This document shows, in pieces, positions 2,272 to 12,352 of a stretch of 28,177 nt of DNA. The notes under the pieces are model-generated. The model was not told where the DNA came from, ran no database searches, and saw nothing but the letters and a program-made list of their open reading frames with translations. This DNA is from a virus. The stretch covers positions 10,398-38,574 of the IMG/VR virus record IMGVR_UViG_3300030380_005777. One strand, given 5' to 3'. Positions within the stretch are counted from its first letter, which is position 1, and each line of letters begins with the position of its first letter. The position numbers and the translations under genes were made by a program.

Positions 2272-2852
2272 TTCTAAACGATACTCAAAAAAATTTATCT
2301 GAATACGTAAAGGTATACGACAATGTAATACCAATACAAAAATTACAAAAGTTATTGAAATGGCTTAATACAGTTCAACCTGATTATTGGGAAGCAGGAA
2401 AAATTGGAGATACTGGTGATGGTGGTAAACTTGATAAATCTTTTAGAGTTGTTGATTGTTTACCTTTATGCACTCATCATAACTCCATGACAAATGTTCA
2501 TTATACATATTTTTTTCATGAAGTGGTTATGCAAATAGTAAGAAAATACGTAAAGGATACAGGCATAGAGTTTTGGGATTGCAATGTTTCACAGCTAGAA
2601 ATTTTAAGATACACAGTTGGTGGTAATTATAAACCGCATGTTGATGCTAGTCTTCTATATCCAAGAAGACTAAGTTTTATATATTTATTAAATAATGATT
2701 ACGAGGGAGGTGAATTACATTTTCCAGATATTGGAAAAGTTGATTTGCAACCAAACAGATGTGTTATTTGGCCAAGTAATTTTATGTATCCGCACGGAGT
2801 CAAACCAGTTACAAAGGGAGTAAGGTATAGTTTAGTATCATGGATAAATTAA
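2247..2852 (+). CDS. 2-oxoglutarate/Fe(II) oxygenase, prolyl 4-hydroxylase-like
   Basis: This is a 201-residue protein with the full facial triad of the 2OG-Fe(II) dioxygenase fold. H131 and D133 lie in NYKPHVDAS, H183 lies in MYPHGVKPV, and the 2-oxoglutarate-binding R193 sits ten residues later in KGVRYSLVSW. The strand segment RLSFIYLLNNDYEGGELHFP (141-160) is the typical core of the prolyl 4-hydroxylase alpha-subunit-like branch. Such enzymes hydroxylate proline or other side chains using O2 and 2-oxoglutarate. The substrate cannot be read from the sequence. The start overlaps the upstream gene by 25 bases and the end overlaps the next oxygenase by 13 bases, which indicates one operon. 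Confidence 0.85.
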   Translation: MEQKNNKIILNDTQKNLSEYVKVYDNVIPIQKLQKLLKWLNTVQPDYWEAGKIGDTGDGGKLDKSFRVVDCLPLCTHHNSMTNVHYTYFFHEVVMQIVRKYVKDTGIEFWDCNVSQLEILRYTVGGNYKPHVDASLLYPRRLSFIYLLNNDYEGGELHFPDIGKVDLQPNRCVIWPSNFMYPHGVKPVTKGVRYSLVSWIN

Positions 2853-3388
2853 AAACACCAATACTTGTAAAAGATTTTATAACTCCAGAGGAGGCTTTTT
2901 TCTTTCATAGTTATGCAAAATTAAATTTAAGAAATAACGCAGGTGGGTTGTCTATGGCTGATGATGTTGTGACTAATTTTGATGCATCTCATTATGCTGA
3001 TCCAGCTACAGAGATTTTATTAGTGCAAAAATGGAAACGTATGGAAGAAATATGTGGTGTAAAATTGTGGCCTACTTATTCATTTTATAGGATGTATGTA
3101 AACGGATCTGAATTAAAAAAACATAGAGATAGACCATCTTGTGAGTATTCTGTTACCTTACATTTAGGATCTGATAGTGTGCCATGGAAAATGTGTGCTG
3201 ATGGCAAGTGTTTTGATTTAAAACCTGGAGAAGCAATAGTTTATAAAGGTATTGATTGGGAGCATTACAGAGAGGGACCTTATGAAGGAGATCAATACAG
3301 CCAAGTATTTATGCATTATGTTAATCAAGAAGGTCCTCATAAAGATTGGAAATTTGACAAAAGACTTCGGATAGGTTTAAGAAGATAA
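2840..3388 (+). CDS. Second 2OG-Fe(II) oxygenase-like protein
   Basis: This is a 182-residue protein. HRD (H95, D97) in the segment ELKKHRDRPSCEYSVTLHLG gives the first two iron ligands. WEHYREGPYEGDQYSQVFMHY supplies the distal histidine, H142. The expected arginine about ten residues after the distal histidine is not there (Q152); R144 or another residue may take its place. The layout 'HRD, strand, KPGEAIVY, H.RE..G....QVF.HY' matches a bacterial and phage subfamily of small 2OG dioxygenases that I recall. Substrate is unknown. It overlaps the preceding oxygenase, so the two are probably made together and may act on the same target. Confidence 0.75.
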   Translation: MDKLKTPILVKDFITPEEAFFFHSYAKLNLRNNAGGLSMADDVVTNFDASHYADPATEILLVQKWKRMEEICGVKLWPTYSFYRMYVNGSELKKHRDRPSCEYSVTLHLGSDSVPWKMCADGKCFDLKPGEAIVYKGIDWEHYREGPYEGDQYSQVFMHYVNQEGPHKDWKFDKRLRIGLRR

Positions 3389-6387: not shown

Positions 6388-6551
6388 TGGCTAGAGTAGA
6401 TATACAAATACCAGAACCAACACCTGAATATACTGAAGAAAACCAAAGACAGGTTGCTCAATCTTTACAAACATTAAAGGATAAGCTAAACACATCCTAC
6501 CAAAGAGAAATTAAAAATGAACAAGATGCATTCAATTATTTTTTAACATGA
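6387..6551 (+). CDS. Small 54-residue phage protein
   Basis: The ATG sits on the last base of the upstream TAA (TAATGG). The stop TGA overlaps the next ATG in an ATGA quartet, so the frame fits exactly between two coupled genes. The product starts MARVDIQIPEPTPEYTEENQ and continues with a helix (about 21-50) ending in FNYFLT. It has no transmembrane segment. I recall similar short proteins beside virion genes in marine phages, but no function is established. The double overlap is the main evidence that it is real. Confidence 0.7.
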   Translation: MARVDIQIPEPTPEYTEENQRQVAQSLQTLKDKLNTSYQREIKNEQDAFNYFLT

Positions 6552-6898
6552 CCATACAATATAAAAATCAAGGTTTTAAACAGACTGATACAAGCAAGAC
6601 TACTGCACTAACATGTCCTAGTGATGCAACAATAATAGTTAAAAGCATTTATGTTGCAAACAATGATGCATCATCAGCTATTTTAGTAAACATGAATTTA
6701 GTAGATTCTTCTGATTCGAGTGCTGAGTATGAATTTTTTAGAGATGACGTTGCAGCCAAGACACAAGTTAATGCTGCACCACAAGGTTTAAATTTAGAAG
6801 CAAGTGATGCAATAACCATACAAGCAGCAACAGGTAGTAGTAAAATTCAAGGTGTTATTAGTTATGCTCAAATAGACAGATCTCAGGAGAATGGCTAG
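6548..6898 (+). CDS. Small beta-rich virion-type protein
   Basis: This is a 116-residue protein of alternating short strands, poor in charge and rich in Ser, Ala, Asp and Val. The C-terminal segment (LEASDAITIQAATGSSKIQG) and the repeated 'VKSIYVANNDASSAILVNM' style are typical of small beta-sandwich virion or head/tail decoration proteins. It is coupled by ATGA to the upstream microprotein and overlaps the next basic gene by eight bases. Assignment to the virion is inference from composition and neighbourhood. Confidence 0.7.
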   Translation: MTIQYKNQGFKQTDTSKTTALTCPSDATIIVKSIYVANNDASSAILVNMNLVDSSDSSAEYEFFRDDVAAKTQVNAAPQGLNLEASDAITIQAATGSSKIQGVISYAQIDRSQENG

Positions 6899-7031
6899 AC
6901 AAAAATTTACACATTTTGTACCCAGAGATAAACCTAAAAAAAGAGGTCCTGGTCAACATAAAAAAAATAAAAATAAACACGAAAAACGGCAACAGAAACA
7001 TCAACGCTACAAGGGCCAAGGCCGTCCATGA
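6891..7031 (+). CDS. Very basic 46-residue protein
   Basis: The ATG follows a strong CAGGAG ribosome site lying inside the end of the previous gene, and the TGA overlaps the next ATG (ATGA). The product begins MARQKFTHFVPRDKPKKRGP and contains an NKHEKR core. It carries 17 Lys/Arg and 4 His in 46 residues, so it should bind nucleic acid or acidic protein. I recall the FTHFVPRxKPKKR...HEKR pattern as recurring in marine phage genomes without known function. It could condense DNA, bind RNA or ribosomes, or serve as a basic internal particle peptide. Confidence 0.75.
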   Translation: MARQKFTHFVPRDKPKKRGPGQHKKNKNKHEKRQQKHQRYKGQGRP

Positions 7032-7606
7032 GAAATCCTCATCAACAATCTTTTCAAAAATTTAATGAGTTTTTAAGCACCCATCAAGTAAATTTAAAAG
7101 AATGGGATATGTTTGATTTGTTAAAAATATCAAAAAGATTTCCTTATCAGTTTCACCATGGGCATGAAAGTATTTGTCTCATAGATAATCTAGGAACAAA
7201 ACTAAGAAAAGAATTATTTGATATATACGGCTTTTTAGATTTTGATAAGTTTAAAAATTTTTATGATAAAGGATTTTCATTTATTATAAGTGATGTGCTT
7301 GATATAAGTGATGAACTTAAGGAGATTGAAAAGGTTGCTTTAGAAACATTTGGTGTAAGAATATGTGGTAATTTTTATTTTTCTAAAGGACTCAATAATC
7401 AAAATGTTTCTTTTCCAGAACATACAGATGATTATCCTTTATTTATAAAAAACATATATGGAGAATCTCTTTGGAGTATTGGTAATAAAGAGGTAGTGGT
7501 TAAAGATCAAAATGTTCAGTTCATAAATAGAATGACTCCACATTGTGTAACTTCTATAAAAGAACCTAGACTATCTTTAAGTTTAGCTATATATAAACAA
7601 GATTAA
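7028..7606 (+). CDS. 2OG-Fe(II) oxygenase/cupin-like protein (third of the set)
   Basis: This is a 192-residue protein. The C-terminal half shows an iron-binding pattern: H132 and D134 in PEHTDDYPLFI, H172 in MTPHCVTSIKEPR, and R181 nine residues later, ahead of LSLSLAIY. This spacing fits a small double-stranded beta-helix oxygenase. The N-terminal 110 residues are helical and unlike the other oxygenases here (LKEWDMFDLLKISKRFPY), so it is a distinct lineage rather than a recent duplicate. It starts by ATGA coupling to the basic microprotein. A two-base gap separates it from the methyltransferase. Substrate is unknown. Confidence 0.65.
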   Translation: MRNPHQQSFQKFNEFLSTHQVNLKEWDMFDLLKISKRFPYQFHHGHESICLIDNLGTKLRKELFDIYGFLDFDKFKNFYDKGFSFIISDVLDISDELKEIEKVALETFGVRICGNFYFSKGLNNQNVSFPEHTDDYPLFIKNIYGESLWSIGNKEVVVKDQNVQFINRMTPHCVTSIKEPRLSLSLAIYKQD

Positions 7607-7608
7607 TT

Positions 7609-8430
7609 ATGAAAATTGAAACCACAAAAACAACACTTAACTTGTTATTTTCAAATGATGAAATAGAAAAAATTAAACAAGAGGGTGTAATGACTATTCG
7701 AAATGCAAATAAAAAACATTTTATAAATGCCATGGTTGATCAGATGATGAACATTTATAAAACAATGCAGGATAGTGAATATGCAAATTTATTTACAAAA
7801 GGGAATACTATAGAAGAGGAAGATACTACTCATGAATACAAAGCTGAATTAAATGTTATTGATAGAATTTTAGAAAATAATAAACATTATACTAACGTTA
7901 TACAGCTTGCAAAGTTTGCTAATTTTAAATGGAAAGGACTTAAGTTATTAAAAGATCCTATGAGTTTAACTATATATCAACAGATGCTGCAGGATATTAA
8001 ACCGAAAACAATATTAGAATTTGGTTCAGGAGAAGGTGGTTCTGCTTCTTGGTTTTCTGACATGACAAAAACATTAGGTTTAGATACAAGAGTTATTACT
8101 GTAGACAATCAGGAGATCCAAGACATACCGAATGTTGAATTTATAAAATTAGATGTTAACAATATAGACTCTCATGAGTTTGAAAAATACGAATCCCCTA
8201 TGATAGTTATTGAAGATTGTCATGTTAATATGCAAGGAATTATTAATAAGGTGTCGCCTATGATGGCTCCTGGTGATTCTTTAGTTATAGAGGATACCAT
8301 AGAACCAGAAAAGTATGATATACTTAAATCTTGTAATTTAACTTCATTTAGTAGAGATAGTAAATATTGTGACTTCTGGGGAAAAAATAATTCTTGGAAC
8401 TACGATTCATTTTTAAGAAAGGAGAAATAG
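7609..8430 (+). CDS. CmcI-like (cephalosporin hydroxylase family) SAM methyltransferase
   Basis: This is a 273-residue protein with a Rossmann-type SAM site: TILEFGSGEGGSA (134-146), an acidic strand end in VITVDN (162-167), and later IEDCH (201-205) and LVIEDT (225-230). This arrangement matches the CmcI / rhamnosyl O-methyltransferase family, which despite the name 'cephalosporin hydroxylase' is mostly found as sugar O-methyltransferases in polysaccharide clusters. It stands upstream of two glycosyltransferases, which supports methylation of a glycan. The N-terminal 110 residues are a helical extension. No ribosome site is seen; the start lies two bases after the previous stop. Confidence 0.75.
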   Translation: MKIETTKTTLNLLFSNDEIEKIKQEGVMTIRNANKKHFINAMVDQMMNIYKTMQDSEYANLFTKGNTIEEEDTTHEYKAELNVIDRILENNKHYTNVIQLAKFANFKWKGLKLLKDPMSLTIYQQMLQDIKPKTILEFGSGEGGSASWFSDMTKTLGLDTRVITVDNQEIQDIPNVEFIKLDVNNIDSHEFEKYESPMIVIEDCHVNMQGIINKVSPMMAPGDSLVIEDTIEPEKYDILKSCNLTSFSRDSKYCDFWGKNNSWNYDSFLRKEK

Positions 8431-8431
8431 T

Positions 8432-8635
8432 ATGACTTTAAGAAAAATACCAGCTGAAGCTAAAGAAATAATTAAACATAAAAGAACAGGAAAAGTTTAT
8501 GATAGCAAAGCTGATTTTGACGCTGATGTTGCTGATCCCAACACTGATACTACTGCTGATGATTTTAGACAAGACTTGGAAATCAAAGTTACGAAAGTAT
8601 CTATGGAAAGTCTAACTAAGGATAATGATAGCTAA
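8432..8635 (+). CDS. Small acidic phage protein
   Basis: This is a 67-residue protein behind a strong AAAGGAG ribosome site at the end of the methyltransferase gene. It begins MTLRKIPAEAKEIIKHKRTG, then reads VYDSKADFDADVADPN followed by a Thr/Asp-rich stretch. The first half is basic and the rest acidic. I recall similar short genes among marine phages, without function. Its last eleven bases overlap the next gene. Confidence 0.7.
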   Translation: MTLRKIPAEAKEIIKHKRTGKVYDSKADFDADVADPNTDTTADDFRQDLEIKVTKVSMESLTKDNDS

Positions 8636-9137
8636 GCAGGTTGAAGATTTTATTCCTAGGTTAGATTTTATTTTACCTGAATTAAAAAAGATTAAATTGT
8701 ACGATCAGGAGTCTCTTAATTCTTTAAGAGGAACTACTGAGACATTTCCAGGCTTCAGAAGCTTACCATTGGTTGAAACAAATCCTTTTTTATTTGAATA
8801 CATTAATTTTTTGATGTTTTTTAATAGGTTGATCAAGCCAGAGGAAGTTAAATTTATTACCCATTTTATACAGCTAAGACTAGAAGAAGATAACAAAAAA
8901 GAATTTATACATAGAGATTTTTATGAACTCGCTTCTTTAGTATATTTGTCAGAAACAAATTTAAATTCTGGGACACGTTTATATGATATTAACAAAAATA
9001 TTATTAATGATTTTAAGTTTGTAAAAAATAGATTAATAATGTATTCTGGCATTTATTTACATATGGGTTATGGACATCATGGTACAGACATTGAAAATGG
9101 TAGACTTACCCTAAACAGTTTTATAACATTAAAATAA
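8625..9137 (+). CDS. Fourth oxygenase-like protein (2OG-Fe(II), DUF6445-like)
   Basis: This is a 170-residue protein. FIHRDFYELASLVYLSE (95-110) gives the HxD pair H96/D98. NRLIMYSGIYLHMGYGHHG provides candidate distal ligands (H146, or H151/H152), and R160 in ENGRLTLNSF may bind the cosubstrate. The sequence 'H.D......VYLS...N...GTRLYD....RL..Y.G..LH' resembles the uncharacterised 2OG-type family DUF6445 (name from memory). An AAGGA ribosome site precedes the ATG. The stop overlaps the next ATG (TAATG), linking it to the glycosyltransferase. The substrate is unknown; its position suggests a glycan or a virion protein. Confidence 0.65.
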   Translation: MIAKQVEDFIPRLDFILPELKKIKLYDQESLNSLRGTTETFPGFRSLPLVETNPFLFEYINFLMFFNRLIKPEEVKFITHFIQLRLEEDNKKEFIHRDFYELASLVYLSETNLNSGTRLYDINKNIINDFKFVKNRLIMYSGIYLHMGYGHHGTDIENGRLTLNSFITLK

Positions 9138-10072
9138 TGAATCCTAGAGGTGCAACAGAAATTCAAATGGAAATGCTTCATAAGCATGTATCCAAAGATT
9201 TGCTAGACAAAGTACAAATATGTACATCAATACCTGGTAAAGTTCCATTAGACCCTAATAAAGTAAATATCTTATGGCAAAAAAATTCTTGGGATCAACC
9301 TAATCTTCAAGCTTTTTTCGGAAACAAAGAAAGGCATAAAGAATATGATTGGTACGTATTTAATAGTCATTGGAACTATGAGAAGTTTAGATATTTTTTT
9401 GATATTCCAACAGAAAAATCATTAGTAATTAAAAACGGTATTGATTCTTTTCCACAAAGAAAAGTATATAAAAAAGGTGACCCTATAAAATTAATCCATC
9501 ATTGCACTCCATGGAGAGGCTTAAACCTTGTACTGAGGGCCATGCAAGAAATAAAAGATCCTAATATTACTTTAGATGTTTACAGCTCCACACAAGTTTA
9601 TGGAGATAACTTTAAAAATAACAATGATGAACAATTCAAACCTTTGTATGACCAGGCAGAGAAATTACCAAATGTAAATTATATTGGCTACAAACCAAAT
9701 GAGTATATAAGAGAGGTGATGCCAAGTTATGATATGTTTGTTTACCCAAGCATATTTGAGGAAACCTCTTGTGTGTCAGCATTAGAAGCCCTAGCAGCAG
9801 GAGTTCATGTAATTACAAACAACTTTGGTGCTTTATATGAAACATGTGCTGAATGGCCTGTATATATTACATACAGTAAAAATTACAACAGCATGGCAAG
9901 AGATACTGCAGCAGCAATACAAATGGCAGCAACTTACTTACATACAGATTACATACAAGACCATTTAGAGGAACAACAAAAATTTTATAAAAGATTTTAT
10001 AATTGGGACAAAAAAGGTCATGAGTGGTCTGGCTTTTTGGAAGGGGCTATAAATGAAAGAAACAATAAATAA
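9137..10072 (+). CDS. GT-B glycosyltransferase, family 4-like
   Basis: This is a 311-residue protein with a typical GT4 C-terminal half. KLIHHCTPWRGLNLVLRAM (118-136) is the start of the second Rossmann domain, PNVNYIGYKPN lies at about 178-188, and EETSCVSALEALAAG carries the EX7E donor-site motif (E209 and E217). The N-terminal domain is short: it lacks the usual long acceptor domain and begins with GATEIQMEML, which resembles the Gly-rich acceptor loop of GT4 enzymes. It would transfer a nucleotide-activated sugar to a glycan, lipid or protein. It overlaps the following glycosyltransferase by 20 bases. Confidence 0.8.
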   Translation: MNPRGATEIQMEMLHKHVSKDLLDKVQICTSIPGKVPLDPNKVNILWQKNSWDQPNLQAFFGNKERHKEYDWYVFNSHWNYEKFRYFFDIPTEKSLVIKNGIDSFPQRKVYKKGDPIKLIHHCTPWRGLNLVLRAMQEIKDPNITLDVYSSTQVYGDNFKNNNDEQFKPLYDQAEKLPNVNYIGYKPNEYIREVMPSYDMFVYPSIFEETSCVSALEALAAGVHVITNNFGALYETCAEWPVYITYSKNYNSMARDTAAAIQMAATYLHTDYIQDHLEEQQKFYKRFYNWDKKGHEWSGFLEGAINERNNK

Positions 10073-10916
10073 AGATACTTATCAAACCTTAAAAGAACTT
10101 AAAATACAACCACCTCCTTACGAAAAATCAATAACTCCAATGTGGAAAGAAGAGGTAGAAACAGTAAAACCTTATTCATTATATGTTGCAACACCAGTGC
10201 ATAGCAATGTTTCAATCCATTACACACAAGCATTACTTGAGCTTCAACAATTGTGTATGAAAAAAAAGATAAGAATAACTTTTTCATTATTAAAATCTTC
10301 ATTAGTAACCCAAGGTAGAAACTTATGCGTATCTGGTTTTTTAGCATCTGACTTTACACATTTATTATTTGTAGATTCTGATATTTATATGGAGCCAGAA
10401 TCAATATTAACTATGATAGAAAAAGACAAAGATGTTATTTCAATTCCTTACCCTTTAAAGACAATGATGTGGGATAAACTATATAAAAGAATGGAGAATG
10501 GAGAAATAAAAGGACCAGGAGATATACCAAAAAATTTAAATTGTTACCCAATGAGAGTTGCAAATGCAAAAGATATACAGATTGAAGATGGTGTTATGGA
10601 AGTAACGCACAGTCCAACAGGGTGTATGTTAATTAAAAGAGGTGTTTTTGATAAGATGATAAAGGCTTATCCAAATCATAATATTGTGCAAAAGACTGTT
10701 ATTAATGGTAAATATATAGATAGACCTCATTTATGGAATTTTTTCGATACCTTACATGACCCAGATACTAAATCATATTTAGGTGAAGATTTTGCCTTTT
10801 GTAAGCGTTGGAAGGACATAGGGGGCAAGTGTTACACATATGTCAATGACTCAATCGTACATGTGGGGGAGCATCAATATGAAGGTCGTTTTGCTGATGA
10901 GTTGAAACCGAGGTAG
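10053..10916 (+). CDS. GT-A glycosyltransferase
   Basis: This is a 287-residue protein with features of the GT-A fold. LYVATPVHSNVSIHYTQALL (43-62) opens the nucleotide-binding domain, SSLVTQGRNLCVSGFL (82-97) follows, and the metal-binding DxD is in THLLFVDSDIYM (D108, D110). SPTGCMLIKRGVF and LGEDFAFCKRWKDIGGKCY form the acceptor-side region with an ED pair often used as catalytic base, and HVGEHQYEGRF closes the domain. The start lies inside the preceding GT-B gene behind an AAGGGG ribosome site. The pair probably builds or decorates one glycan. Substrate is unknown. Confidence 0.8.
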   Translation: MKETINKDTYQTLKELKIQPPPYEKSITPMWKEEVETVKPYSLYVATPVHSNVSIHYTQALLELQQLCMKKKIRITFSLLKSSLVTQGRNLCVSGFLASDFTHLLFVDSDIYMEPESILTMIEKDKDVISIPYPLKTMMWDKLYKRMENGEIKGPGDIPKNLNCYPMRVANAKDIQIEDGVMEVTHSPTGCMLIKRGVFDKMIKAYPNHNIVQKTVINGKYIDRPHLWNFFDTLHDPDTKSYLGEDFAFCKRWKDIGGKCYTYVNDSIVHVGEHQYEGRFADELKPR

Positions 10917-10965: not shown

Positions 10966-11916
10966 ATGCTAAATCTAATACCCTACGCATTAGCTGCATA
11001 CGGTGGTTATCAAGGATACAAAGGTGCTAAACAACAAGGAGCTTCAGGAATAGGAAGCCTATTAAGAGGAGCTTTGGGTGCCTACGGTGGGTATACAGCA
11101 GGTTCTGCAGGCTTACAAACATTTGCACCAAACGCATATAAATCTTTTGCAGCAACACAACCTGCGTTTTTATCAAGATTCCCAGGCACACCAGGACCTA
11201 ATTTCAATGTACCAGATTCAATAAGTGGTGGAAAAACAGTAGGAGATAAAAGTTTATTAGATTTACTAAAAAAAGGTGGTGACCCAACTGCAGAGTTTTC
11301 TGGAGGAAGAGTAGCTACAGCAATTGGACTAGGAACTTATTTATCTGGAGCATTCGATCCAGGGCCAACTGATATTTTTATGCCAGGTTATAATATGAGT
11401 TATCTAGATTTAAAAGAACAAAGACCTGGATATACTTATATTGATCCAACAACAGGACAAGAAAAAGCATATGAAAAAGTTTATTCACCAGAAGAGGCAG
11501 GACTAGGACAAAGAAGAGTTGGTCCGTATTCATTAAATCAAACAAGATTAAAAACAGGTGGATTAGCAGAAATTAAAAAATTCAATCAAGGTGGTATAAA
11601 TTATTTACCATCAAAAGTTTCCCATGATGAAAATGATGCAAACAATTATGTAAGAGCATCTGGTTATGTGGAGGATGGTGCAGGAGCAGGAGATAAAGAC
11701 GAGGATACAATGTTAGCTCAATTAGCAGACGGAGAGTTTGTAACAAGAGCAGATGGAGTATTAGGTGCTGGGATTTTAGCTGGGGCAAATCCAAAAAGCA
11801 TGAAAGACATGCGAGAAAAAGGTGCTCAATATTTCTATGAACAACAAAAAAGATACAAACGTATTTTTGATTTACTAGAGGATAGAAATGGCGACAGCAA
11901 ACAAAAAATCAATTAA
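10966..11916 (+). CDS. Glycine-rich virion/internal protein
   Basis: This is a 316-residue protein with a strong AAGGAG ribosome site. The first 50 residues are Gly/Ala-rich and weakly hydrophobic with small-residue spacing (YALAAYGGYQGYKGAKQQGA, then GALGAYGGYTAG), like membrane-inserting glycine zippers in phage ejection proteins. The C-terminal 70 residues contain LADGEFVTRADGV (253-265) and a basic helix (QKRYKRIFDLLE). I recall this DGEFV module from the ends of marine phage virion proteins. It overlaps the following gene by 29 bases. An internal virion or DNA-ejection role is likely but not proven. Confidence 0.7.
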   Translation: MLNLIPYALAAYGGYQGYKGAKQQGASGIGSLLRGALGAYGGYTAGSAGLQTFAPNAYKSFAATQPAFLSRFPGTPGPNFNVPDSISGGKTVGDKSLLDLLKKGGDPTAEFSGGRVATAIGLGTYLSGAFDPGPTDIFMPGYNMSYLDLKEQRPGYTYIDPTTGQEKAYEKVYSPEEAGLGQRRVGPYSLNQTRLKTGGLAEIKKFNQGGINYLPSKVSHDENDANNYVRASGYVEDGAGAGDKDEDTMLAQLADGEFVTRADGVLGAGILAGANPKSMKDMREKGAQYFYEQQKRYKRIFDLLEDRNGDSKQKIN

Positions 11917-12352
11917 GCCCCTAGTAAGCATTCTTCCGCTTGAGCCAAAAGATATAGAAAGATTTTGGCCACTAGCAGAGTTTATGGTTTCGGAAGCTTT
12001 AGCTTTCTCTGGTAAGTATGCTGATGCTACTTGGATTATGAATGAGCTAAAAAAAGATGTAATGCAGTGTTGGATTATGTTTGGCTCAGACGAAAGTGAA
12101 GAGAACAAAGTTTTTGGTATTTGTATTGGTAGAATAGGTGTAATGCCAAATTATAACCAATACGAAATTATTATTTGCACAGGTAAGAGAAGAGAACTGT
12201 GGGAAGATAATTTGATTAAGGATGTTACTAATTTTGCTACTGCAAATGAATGTAAAAGATTAAGTATTTTAGCTAGACCCGGTTGGGAAAAAGTTTCTAA
12301 AAAATGGGGCTGGAAAAAGAAACATGTGCAATTAGAAAAATGGATAGGATAA
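11888..12352 (+). CDS. Acetyltransferase-fold protein, gp13-like internal virion candidate
   Basis: This is a 154-residue protein preceded by an AGAGGAT ribosome site. The length and the order helix (FWPLAEFMVSEALAFS), strand (CWIMFG), strand (KVFGICIGRIGVM), strand (YEIIICTG), helix, strand (RLSILARPGW), then an aromatic C-terminus (KKWGWKKKHVQLEKWIG) resemble a GNAT acyltransferase fold. A clear acetyl-CoA-binding R/QxxGxG/A loop is absent (the equivalent reads CTGKRRELWEDN), so enzyme activity is doubtful. Short GNAT-like proteins at this position in podoviruses are usually labelled internal virion protein A (T7 gp13-like). That label is by analogy. Confidence 0.6.
   Translation: MATANKKSIKPLVSILPLEPKDIERFWPLAEFMVSEALAFSGKYADATWIMNELKKDVMQCWIMFGSDESEENKVFGICIGRIGVMPNYNQYEIIICTGKRRELWEDNLIKDVTNFATANECKRLSILARPGWEKVSKKWGWKKKHVQLEKWIG

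Follow-up and report, generated by a model that had tools for sequence, protein, structure and literature searches.

How should a row of genes for oxygenases, a methyltransferase and glycosyltransferases be read when it stands among the virion genes of a marine phage? The row considered here lies at 7028-10916 of a 28,177-nucleotide stretch of viral DNA, called the window below, which corresponds to positions 10,398-38,574 of the 40,990-base virus record IMGVR_UViG_3300030380_005777 (IMG/VR). An initial annotation had taken the six genes of the row as one island, whose order would fit the building of a methylated glycan on a virion protein or the remodelling of the host surface. Comparison with relatives gives a different structure: a fixed pair of glycosyltransferase (GT) genes and two slots for enzyme genes, which flank a small gene, ac67. 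The best single hypothesis for the role of this arrangement is the decoration of a virion component.

The locus and its phage

The window belongs to an HTVC023P-type pelagiphage, an abundant ocean phage of SAR11 bacteria. Its closest DNA is that of the Pelagibacter phages HTVC023P (73% identity, 44% of the query covered) and HTVC027P, two cultured relatives with complete genomes that both carry the GT pair and whose virion blocks agree with the window in gene order. All six open reading frames (ORFs) proposed for 7028-10916 are open there, and they stand among the following features:

g116, 6548..6898, + strand: small virion-block protein; left border of the variable region; kept in 200 relatives
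g46, 6891..7031, + strand: basic microprotein, 46 aa, net charge +15; left edge of slot A
OX1, 7028..7606, + strand: 192 aa; JmjC/cupin-fold Fe(II)/2-oxoglutarate (2OG) oxygenase-like; slot A cargo
MT, 7609..8430, + strand: 273 aa; CmcI-type S-adenosylmethionine methyltransferase; slot A cargo
ac67, 8432..8635, + strand: 67 aa; small conserved virion-block protein between slot A and slot B
OX2, 8625..9137, + strand: 170 aa; prolyl-hydroxylase-like Fe(II)/2OG oxygenase; slot B cargo
GTB, 9137..10072, + strand: 311 aa; GT-B fold glycosyltransferase; lineage core
GTA, 10053..10916, + strand: 287 aa; GT-A/Anp1-like putative glycosyltransferase; lineage core
g316, 10966..11916, + strand: first downstream virion-block gene; right border; conserved after GTA
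Slot A insertion (OX1-MT), 7028..8431, + strand: between g46 and ac67, from nucleotide alignment to empty-slot relatives
Slot B insertion (OX2), 8620..9136, + strand: between ac67 and GTB, from nucleotide alignment to relatives

From OX1 (measured from g46) through GTA, the distances to the preceding gene are -4, +2, +1, -11, -1 and -20 nt, and these overlaps imply shared transcription; g316 follows GTA after 49 nt. A scan for Sigma-70 promoters and terminators gave counts below shuffle expectation, and no promoter is claimed. Several parts of the initial annotation are borne out at this level: the coupling by overlaps and tight gaps (-20 to +2 nt), the placement between virion genes, with a gene order as in the virion block of relatives, and the functions given to OX1, MT, OX2, GTB and GTA, which profiles, folds and motifs support.

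A fixed backbone with two slots

HTVC023P has g54-g116-g46-ac67-GTB-GTA-g316 (gp73-gp79) in direct succession, with nothing between these genes. When the window is compared with eight relatives, nucleotide homology stops at ~6940-7021 and restarts at ~8409-8444, and it stops again at ~8596-8619 to restart at 9131-9137. The two breaks correspond to two insertions, one of OX1-MT and one of OX2. All three genes brought in this way (GC content of 0.26 for OX1, 0.29 for MT and 0.27 for OX2) are AT-richer than both ac67 and the GT genes (0.32) and most structural genes (0.34-0.41).

The comparison was extended to 200 distinct loci that hold the genes from g54 to GTB and, because loci found through GTB are biased toward GT carriers, to a second set anchored on g287. 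Both GT genes are present in 67/67 of the g287-anchored contigs that hold both flanks. In the complete phage 023Pt_psg01, both are missing, while g54, g116, an ac67 homolog (4.5e-11) and a g316 homolog, directly after ac67, are kept. The constant presence of the GT pair is, consequently, limited to the subclade near the window, of which the pair is the lineage core. As ac67 is found in 023Pt_psg01 without any GT, it belongs to the conserved virion block; it is 90% identical to HTVC023P gp76, has homologs beside g116-like genes in other phages (2.6e-10) and gives no Pfam match. The idea that ac67 is a dedicated substrate of the GTs or MT, in the way of a precursor peptide, was rejected as the leading idea, since the gene persists in the GT-less 023Pt_psg01 and, elsewhere, among other neighbours. 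The left border is also formed by a virion-block gene: a hidden Markov model of g116 matches ORFs annotated as structural in 023Pt_psg01 (1e-7) and HTVC100P (1e-6). The microprotein gene g46 lies between g116 and ac67 in most relatives. Homologs of g46 also occur in the unrelated pelagiphages HTVC100P and 023Pt_psg01, there away from the virion block.

The slots are empty in about 70% of relatives. Enzyme cargo is found in 61/200 loci. One or more oxygenases are present in 60 of these 61, and they fall into roughly a dozen sequence clusters (several of them backed by Pfam and PHROGs). Among the 67 g287-anchored contigs, OX1-type genes are present in 5, OX2-type genes in 4 and MT in none. On the GTB tree, the presence of an oxygenase changes at least 35 times, that of the OX1 type 12 times and that of the two OX2-type clusters 7 and 11 times; cargo turnover is, therefore, fast. 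The rare cargo comprises a carbamoyltransferase (PF16861/PF02543), a GT32-like gene (PF04488) and a tryptophan-halogenase-family protein (PF04820, 4e-93). The last of these stands alone in slot B, between ac67 and GTB, in locus L084 (6484-8004), and in locus L036 (4803-7458) slot B holds a row of an oxygenase, the carbamoyltransferase and the GT32-like gene. One further cargo gene, ST19, has the look of a sulfotransferase by eye; it gives no Pfam match, and no such function is claimed.

These observations led us to reject the six genes as one inherited pathway, and with it the proposal that their order reflects one: the GT pair is core, ac67 is a virion-block gene, and the oxygenases and MT are slot cargo, so that what was inherited is a conserved backbone and two separate insertions. 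Genes scattered singly in relatives, the pattern that the initial annotation had named as speaking against it, are indeed seen in the case of the oxygenases, whereas the GT pair does not show this pattern.

The glycosyltransferases

GTB scores 55.9 bits against PF00534 (cut-off 26.4), is also above the cut-off for PF13692, has the E-x7-E motif (EETSCVSALE in the translation) and is 71% identical to HTVC023P gp77 and 57% to HTVC027P gp80. GTA matches PHROG 1574 (9.5e-37), and its D108-S109-D110 motif is invariant in 11 homologs, including those of two distant phages. Although this DxD motif is invariant, the match of GTA to Anp1 (Anp1/GT62-like) remains under the cut-off (21.0 bits versus 28.8), and GTA is for this reason described as GT-A-like and not filed as Anp1. 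Neither protein has a membrane-spanning-like stretch (the maximum 19-residue hydropathy is 1.14 for GTB and 1.19 for GTA).

The main rival to virion decoration starts from these two enzymes. According to it, the GTs, perhaps together with MT and the oxygenases, alter the lipopolysaccharide or another surface glycan of SAR11, so that competing phages, or the own progeny of the phage, are not adsorbed to infected cells or debris. In favour of this explanation we count that the carbamoyltransferase family represented in some slots has members able to act on sugars (NodU). Most GTs of pelagimyophages have been assigned to host O-chain modification, in a hypervariable island with tail fibres (PMC7029224), and cyanophage GT clusters have been proposed to diversify polysaccharide (PMC7824862). 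On the other hand, the genes are here part of the virion operon, and neither nucleotide-sugar synthesis nor a flippase nor a membrane-anchored GT is found among the Pfam and PHROG matches of the window. We regard the host-surface explanation as a serious contender that is, nevertheless, rather unlikely.

The oxygenases

The evidence for OX1 and OX2 is weak by sequence and clear by fold. OX1 matches JmjC_2 below the Pfam cut-off, and its AlphaFold2 model (pLDDT 83) matches NO66, MINA53 and YcfD (Foldseek 1e-10; VIA Z 14-16, the best match being NO66/MINA53 with Z 16). In this JmjC double-stranded beta-helix, the HxD...H metal triad is H132-x-D134...H172, in which H132 and H172 are invariant and D134 is kept in the clade of the window, with His instead in stand-alone relatives. 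OX2 is just above the Pfam cut-off for DUF6445 (24.5 bits, cut-off 24), and this family is, with PHROG 1644 and 274, all that it matches by profile. The OX2 model (pLDDT 87) matches 3dkq, PHD2, a Pseudomonas prolyl 4-hydroxylase and vCPH of PBCV-1 (Z 13-15), and the residues H96-x-D98, H151/H152 and R160, which correspond to an HxD...H triad and a 2OG-binding Arg, are invariant. The PHROG names that these oxygenases attract, 'minor coat protein' (1644) and 'DNA endonuclease V' (274), were treated as misleading. More generally, the labels of PHROG 274, 2297 ('DNA endonuclease') and 1644 look wrong, as these families match Fe(II)/2OG oxygenases.

Known protein hydroxylases are among the best structural matches of both models. 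This resemblance speaks against a change of the host surface, and it also suggests another explanation, in which OX1, with its ribosomal-oxygenase fold, and OX2, with its prolyl 4-hydroxylase/PHD fold, would hydroxylate ribosomal proteins or EF-Tu of the host and steer translation, the GTs being a separate matter. In fact, NO66, MINA53 and YcfD, the best structural matches of OX1, are ribosomal-protein hydroxylases, and the Pseudomonas enzyme matched by OX2 was solved in complex with EF-Tu (4iw3). However, OX1 has 192 aa and aligns only to the catalytic part of ribosomal oxygenase chains of 360-460 aa, and it is filed as JmjC-like rather than as a member of that group for this reason; JmjC ribosomal oxygenases also carry dimerisation and winged-helix domains. 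The fast change of cargo between near relatives suits a variable surface better than conserved ribosomes, and the placement among virion genes also argues against host proteins as targets. Altogether, this explanation appears improbable.

A further proposal is DNA hypermodification, in which an oxygenase makes a hydroxylated base and the GTs glucosylate modified bases. The action of an oxygenase and a GT on DNA bases is known in some phages. Wittmers et al. (2022, PMC9599517) name both DNA and protein as possible targets of GTs and report DNA hypermodification genes in some clades. By contrast, OX1 and OX2 have no match to Tet_JBP among Pfam profiles, and MT is of the CmcI type and not a DNA methylase. 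A genome-wide search with Tet_JBP was uninformative, as its control gave no match. PF00303, the thymidylate-synthase family, has no member in the complete genomes of HTVC023P and HTVC027P or in the 41-kb genome of the window, in a search whose control was positive in 9/14 known genomes, and T4-type DNA glycosylation is disfavoured because the two complete genomes are without such a gene. DNA is, thus, the least probable of the targets weighed here.

The methyltransferase and its company

MT scores 54.3 bits against PF04989 (RMNT_CmcI), above the gathering cut-off of 23.2, and its profile matches the CmcI crystal structures 2br3/2bm8 with E=5.6e-30. The S-adenosylmethionine-binding EFGxxxGGS region and the acidic IEDCH/VIEDT motifs align with CmcI and are kept in 9 divergent members, among which E202-D203 and E228-D229 are invariant; these acidic motifs presumably form the metal site, as in CmcI. 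By sequence, then, MT is a CmcI-type methyltransferase, with O-methylation as its predicted reaction. The family also includes rhamnosyl O-methyltransferases, a point in favour of the host-surface explanation.

Within the HTVC023P-type group, MT is only found in the arrangement OX1-MT-ac67-OX2, and its origin on the GTB tree takes 1 change; it entered this phage group once, together with OX1 and OX2. The association of MT with OX1 among loci (Fisher's test, 5e-8) carries no correction for the tree and, given this single origin, the co-occurrence of both genes in the group represents one event. Independent evidence has to come from elsewhere. A tblastn search of MT, OX2 and ac67 against the phage collection had ac67 in HTVC023P as its sole match, and a first contig scan with the MT profile had none; a broader profile gave nine loci, and wider scans showed that relatives of MT exist in other phages and in a small number of bacteria.

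Leaving out Rickettsia matches, 13 MT sequence contexts were inspected, and in 8/13 an oxygenase gene is no more than about two genes away from MT (in the window, OX1 and MT are 2 nt apart). The loci with a nearby oxygenase are L090, L182, L183/L184, L284/L285/L289/L290, L286, L279-L283/L287, L268 and L269, so that the linkage extends across unrelated phages; in L183/L184/L284/L285/L289/L290, an OX2-type gene is directly upstream of MT. In the L282 group, a g116 homolog, an oxygenase and an ac67 homolog are followed by MT on the opposite strand, with no GT seen there, and no GT was recognised either among the ORFs shown around MT in L183/L184, L285, L286 and L282. The context of L288 is cut off. 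A binomial estimate for the occurrence of MT beside oxygenases relied on guessed background rates and on 14 contexts instead of 13, and it is not used as proof. As MT associates with oxygenases rather than with GTs, a methylated glycan, as initially suggested, is less likely than methylation coupled to hydroxylation, and the same company argues against the host-surface explanation.

Three of these contexts have further features. In a Prochlorococcus single-cell contig (AG-311-J23; L268, 4266-5582), a 2OG oxygenase and a CmcI-type MT lie between TPR-repeat genes. In Aliikangiella marina (L269), two adjacent CmcI-like MT ORFs are beside an ORF resembling a nonribosomal peptide synthetase (NRPS) and are flanked by two TauD-family oxygenases, possibly an uncharacterised secondary-metabolite cluster. 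In L183 (1463-6186), seven oxygenase-like ORFs, most of them judged by eye, surround one CmcI-type MT and are followed by a coiled-coil fibre-like ORF.

The Aliikangiella locus bears on a fourth explanation, a small-molecule pathway for a modified sugar or amino-acid metabolite, as has been proposed for a jumbo cyanophage cluster. The toolkit is shared (oxygenases, cupin-like folds and O-methyltransferases, with a carbamoyltransferase and a halogenase in the slots of relatives), and in A. marina the related MT pair stands beside the NRPS-like ORF and the two TauD genes. However, the family matches of the window include neither a carrier nor a ligase nor an enzyme that forms peptides, and most relatives have, besides the GT pair, one tailoring enzyme at most. 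A small molecule is very improbable as the product.

Proposed function

The reading that we prefer, to which we give slightly less than an even chance, is that the GT pair glycosylates a virion component, while OX1, MT and OX2 hydroxylate and methylate much as CmcJ and CmcI do. That a virion protein is decorated fits best because of the place in the virion operon (the locus is inside the virion block in all relatives examined), the soluble GTs, the folds resembling protein hydroxylases and the rapid turnover of cargo. GTB and GTA, as a soluble core pair encoded in the late virion operon, would assemble a short glycan, probably in two steps, and the protein that receives it would be a virion protein from the same block. 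The two slots flanking ac67 would take up tailoring enzymes; for the lineage of the window, these are OX1-MT in slot A and OX2 in slot B. The oxygenases may hydroxylate side chains of a virion protein, MT may O-methylate one of the new hydroxyls, and a second hydroxyl might act as acceptor of the glycan. A swap of cargo would then alter the chemistry of the particle surface, with a presumed benefit in adsorption or in protection. Both g116 and ac67 may be proposed as candidate substrates, only because oxygenases stay adjacent to them in two unrelated phage groups.

A distant locus also points to virion decoration. In the marine virus AG-345-L05, which is myovirus-like (L092, 954-11782), GTA and GTB lie between fibre-like ORFs of 968 aa and 916 aa; functions were assigned there by eye, except for GTA and GTB, which rest on sequence matches. 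Alongside them are three oxygenase-like ORFs and one sulfotransferase-like ORF, also by eye.

Several points weigh against the decoration of the virion. Diverged MTs (L179, L181, L277, L278 and L275) have no close oxygenase, and the single origin of MT in this phage group makes its pairing with OX1 there one observation. Similarity of fold does not give the substrate, and the GTs of SAR11 myophages have been interpreted as modifiers of the host O-chain (PMC7029224). A more specific version of virion decoration is put forward as unlikely: SAR11 phages would have interchangeable protein-tailoring slots, and a virion surface protein would be diversified by the two-enzyme glycan and by hydroxylation with subsequent O-methylation, which leaves a methoxy group on a protein side chain.

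Other genes of the window

Further products of the window include tail-fibre-like, virion structural and DNA-ejection-like proteins, followed by a helicase, a primase and DNA polymerase A. A 2OG-Fe(II) oxygenase (2247-2852, phrog_61) overlaps a ferrochelatase-family gene (2840-3388, phrog_2954) ahead of the virion genes, a pairing already described in the HTVC023P group (PMC9599517). A small protein that overlaps g316 (11888-12352) has weak acetyltransferase similarity (phrog_1249, E=0.03) and is kept in relatives at 28-89% identity.

Relation to described systems

The initial annotation knew of no described pathway with this set of genes. This has to be qualified, as a similar toolkit is known from jumbo cyanophages (PMC7824862) and GTs with 2OG oxygenase families from HTVC023P-type phages (PMC9599517); it holds for the arrangement itself, which is undescribed in the open literature searched. 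For HTVC023P-type phages, Wittmers et al. report three glycosyltransferases as well as eight families of 2OG-Fe(II) oxygenases that are non-orthologous, often close together or beside ferrochelatase-like genes. In the accessible passages of that study, there is no fixed core GT pair at this locus, no two slots around ac67 and no carbamoyltransferase or halogenase cargo at this site; the CmcI-type MT is not described there, and the word 'methyltransferase' is absent from the main text.

The clusters of jumbo cyanophages (Iyer et al. 2021, PMC7824862) are alike in combining hydroxylating enzymes with 2OG/cupin-like double-stranded beta-helix folds, O-methyltransferases, carbamoyltransferases and a halogenase, with glycan decoration as a possible role. 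They differ in having 8-12 genes that were read as a secondary-metabolite or capsule system, whereas in the phage of the window, a podovirus, single enzymes or small sets occupy slots of the virion operon next to a GT pair that is fixed. Their carbamoyltransferase and halogenase core is absent from the slots of the window, its elements being found in the relatives L036 and L084. The host recognition cluster of pelagimyophages (PMC7029224) is likewise hypervariable, lies among the structural genes of SAR11 phages and contains GTs, although it spans ~45 kb with tail fibres in T4-like phages, in contrast to two short slots in a fixed backbone.

Other systems share a principle rather than a layout. 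GTs of the mycobacteriophages Che8 and Rita have been reported to glycosylate virion proteins (Freeman et al. 2023, as cited by PMC11256854 and PMC12619734); the accessible parts of these sources mention no hydroxylase-methyltransferase partners and place the GTs of Maravista near the genome end. In cephamycin C biosynthesis, CmcJ and CmcI carry out 7-alpha-methoxylation, with hydroxylation before methylation (PMC6097109). That system resembles ours in joining an oxygenase and a CmcI-type methyltransferase and differs in its small beta-lactam substrate and in that OX1 and OX2 matched other oxygenase families. Mimivirus L230 (PMC9546862) unites a lysyl hydroxylase and a glycosyltransferase in a virus, but a eukaryotic giant virus with collagen as substrate; L230 structures (6ax7/9nev) are among the fold matches of OX2. 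To the extent of the open literature searched, two elements are new: a backbone of fixed GT genes that has a slot on either side of ac67, and the repeated occurrence of oxygenases paired with CmcI-type MTs in phages.

Implications

Many phage 2OG oxygenases are without assigned substrates, and a fixed locus where they come and go, while the GT pair and the virion genes beside them stay constant, reduces the likely substrates to a handful of proteins. The cultured phages HTVC023P and HTVC027P carry the GT core, which makes the predicted virion glycan directly checkable. We know of no protein modification by hydroxylation and subsequent methylation described before in a phage and, if the proposal is true, that of these SAR11 phages would be the first.

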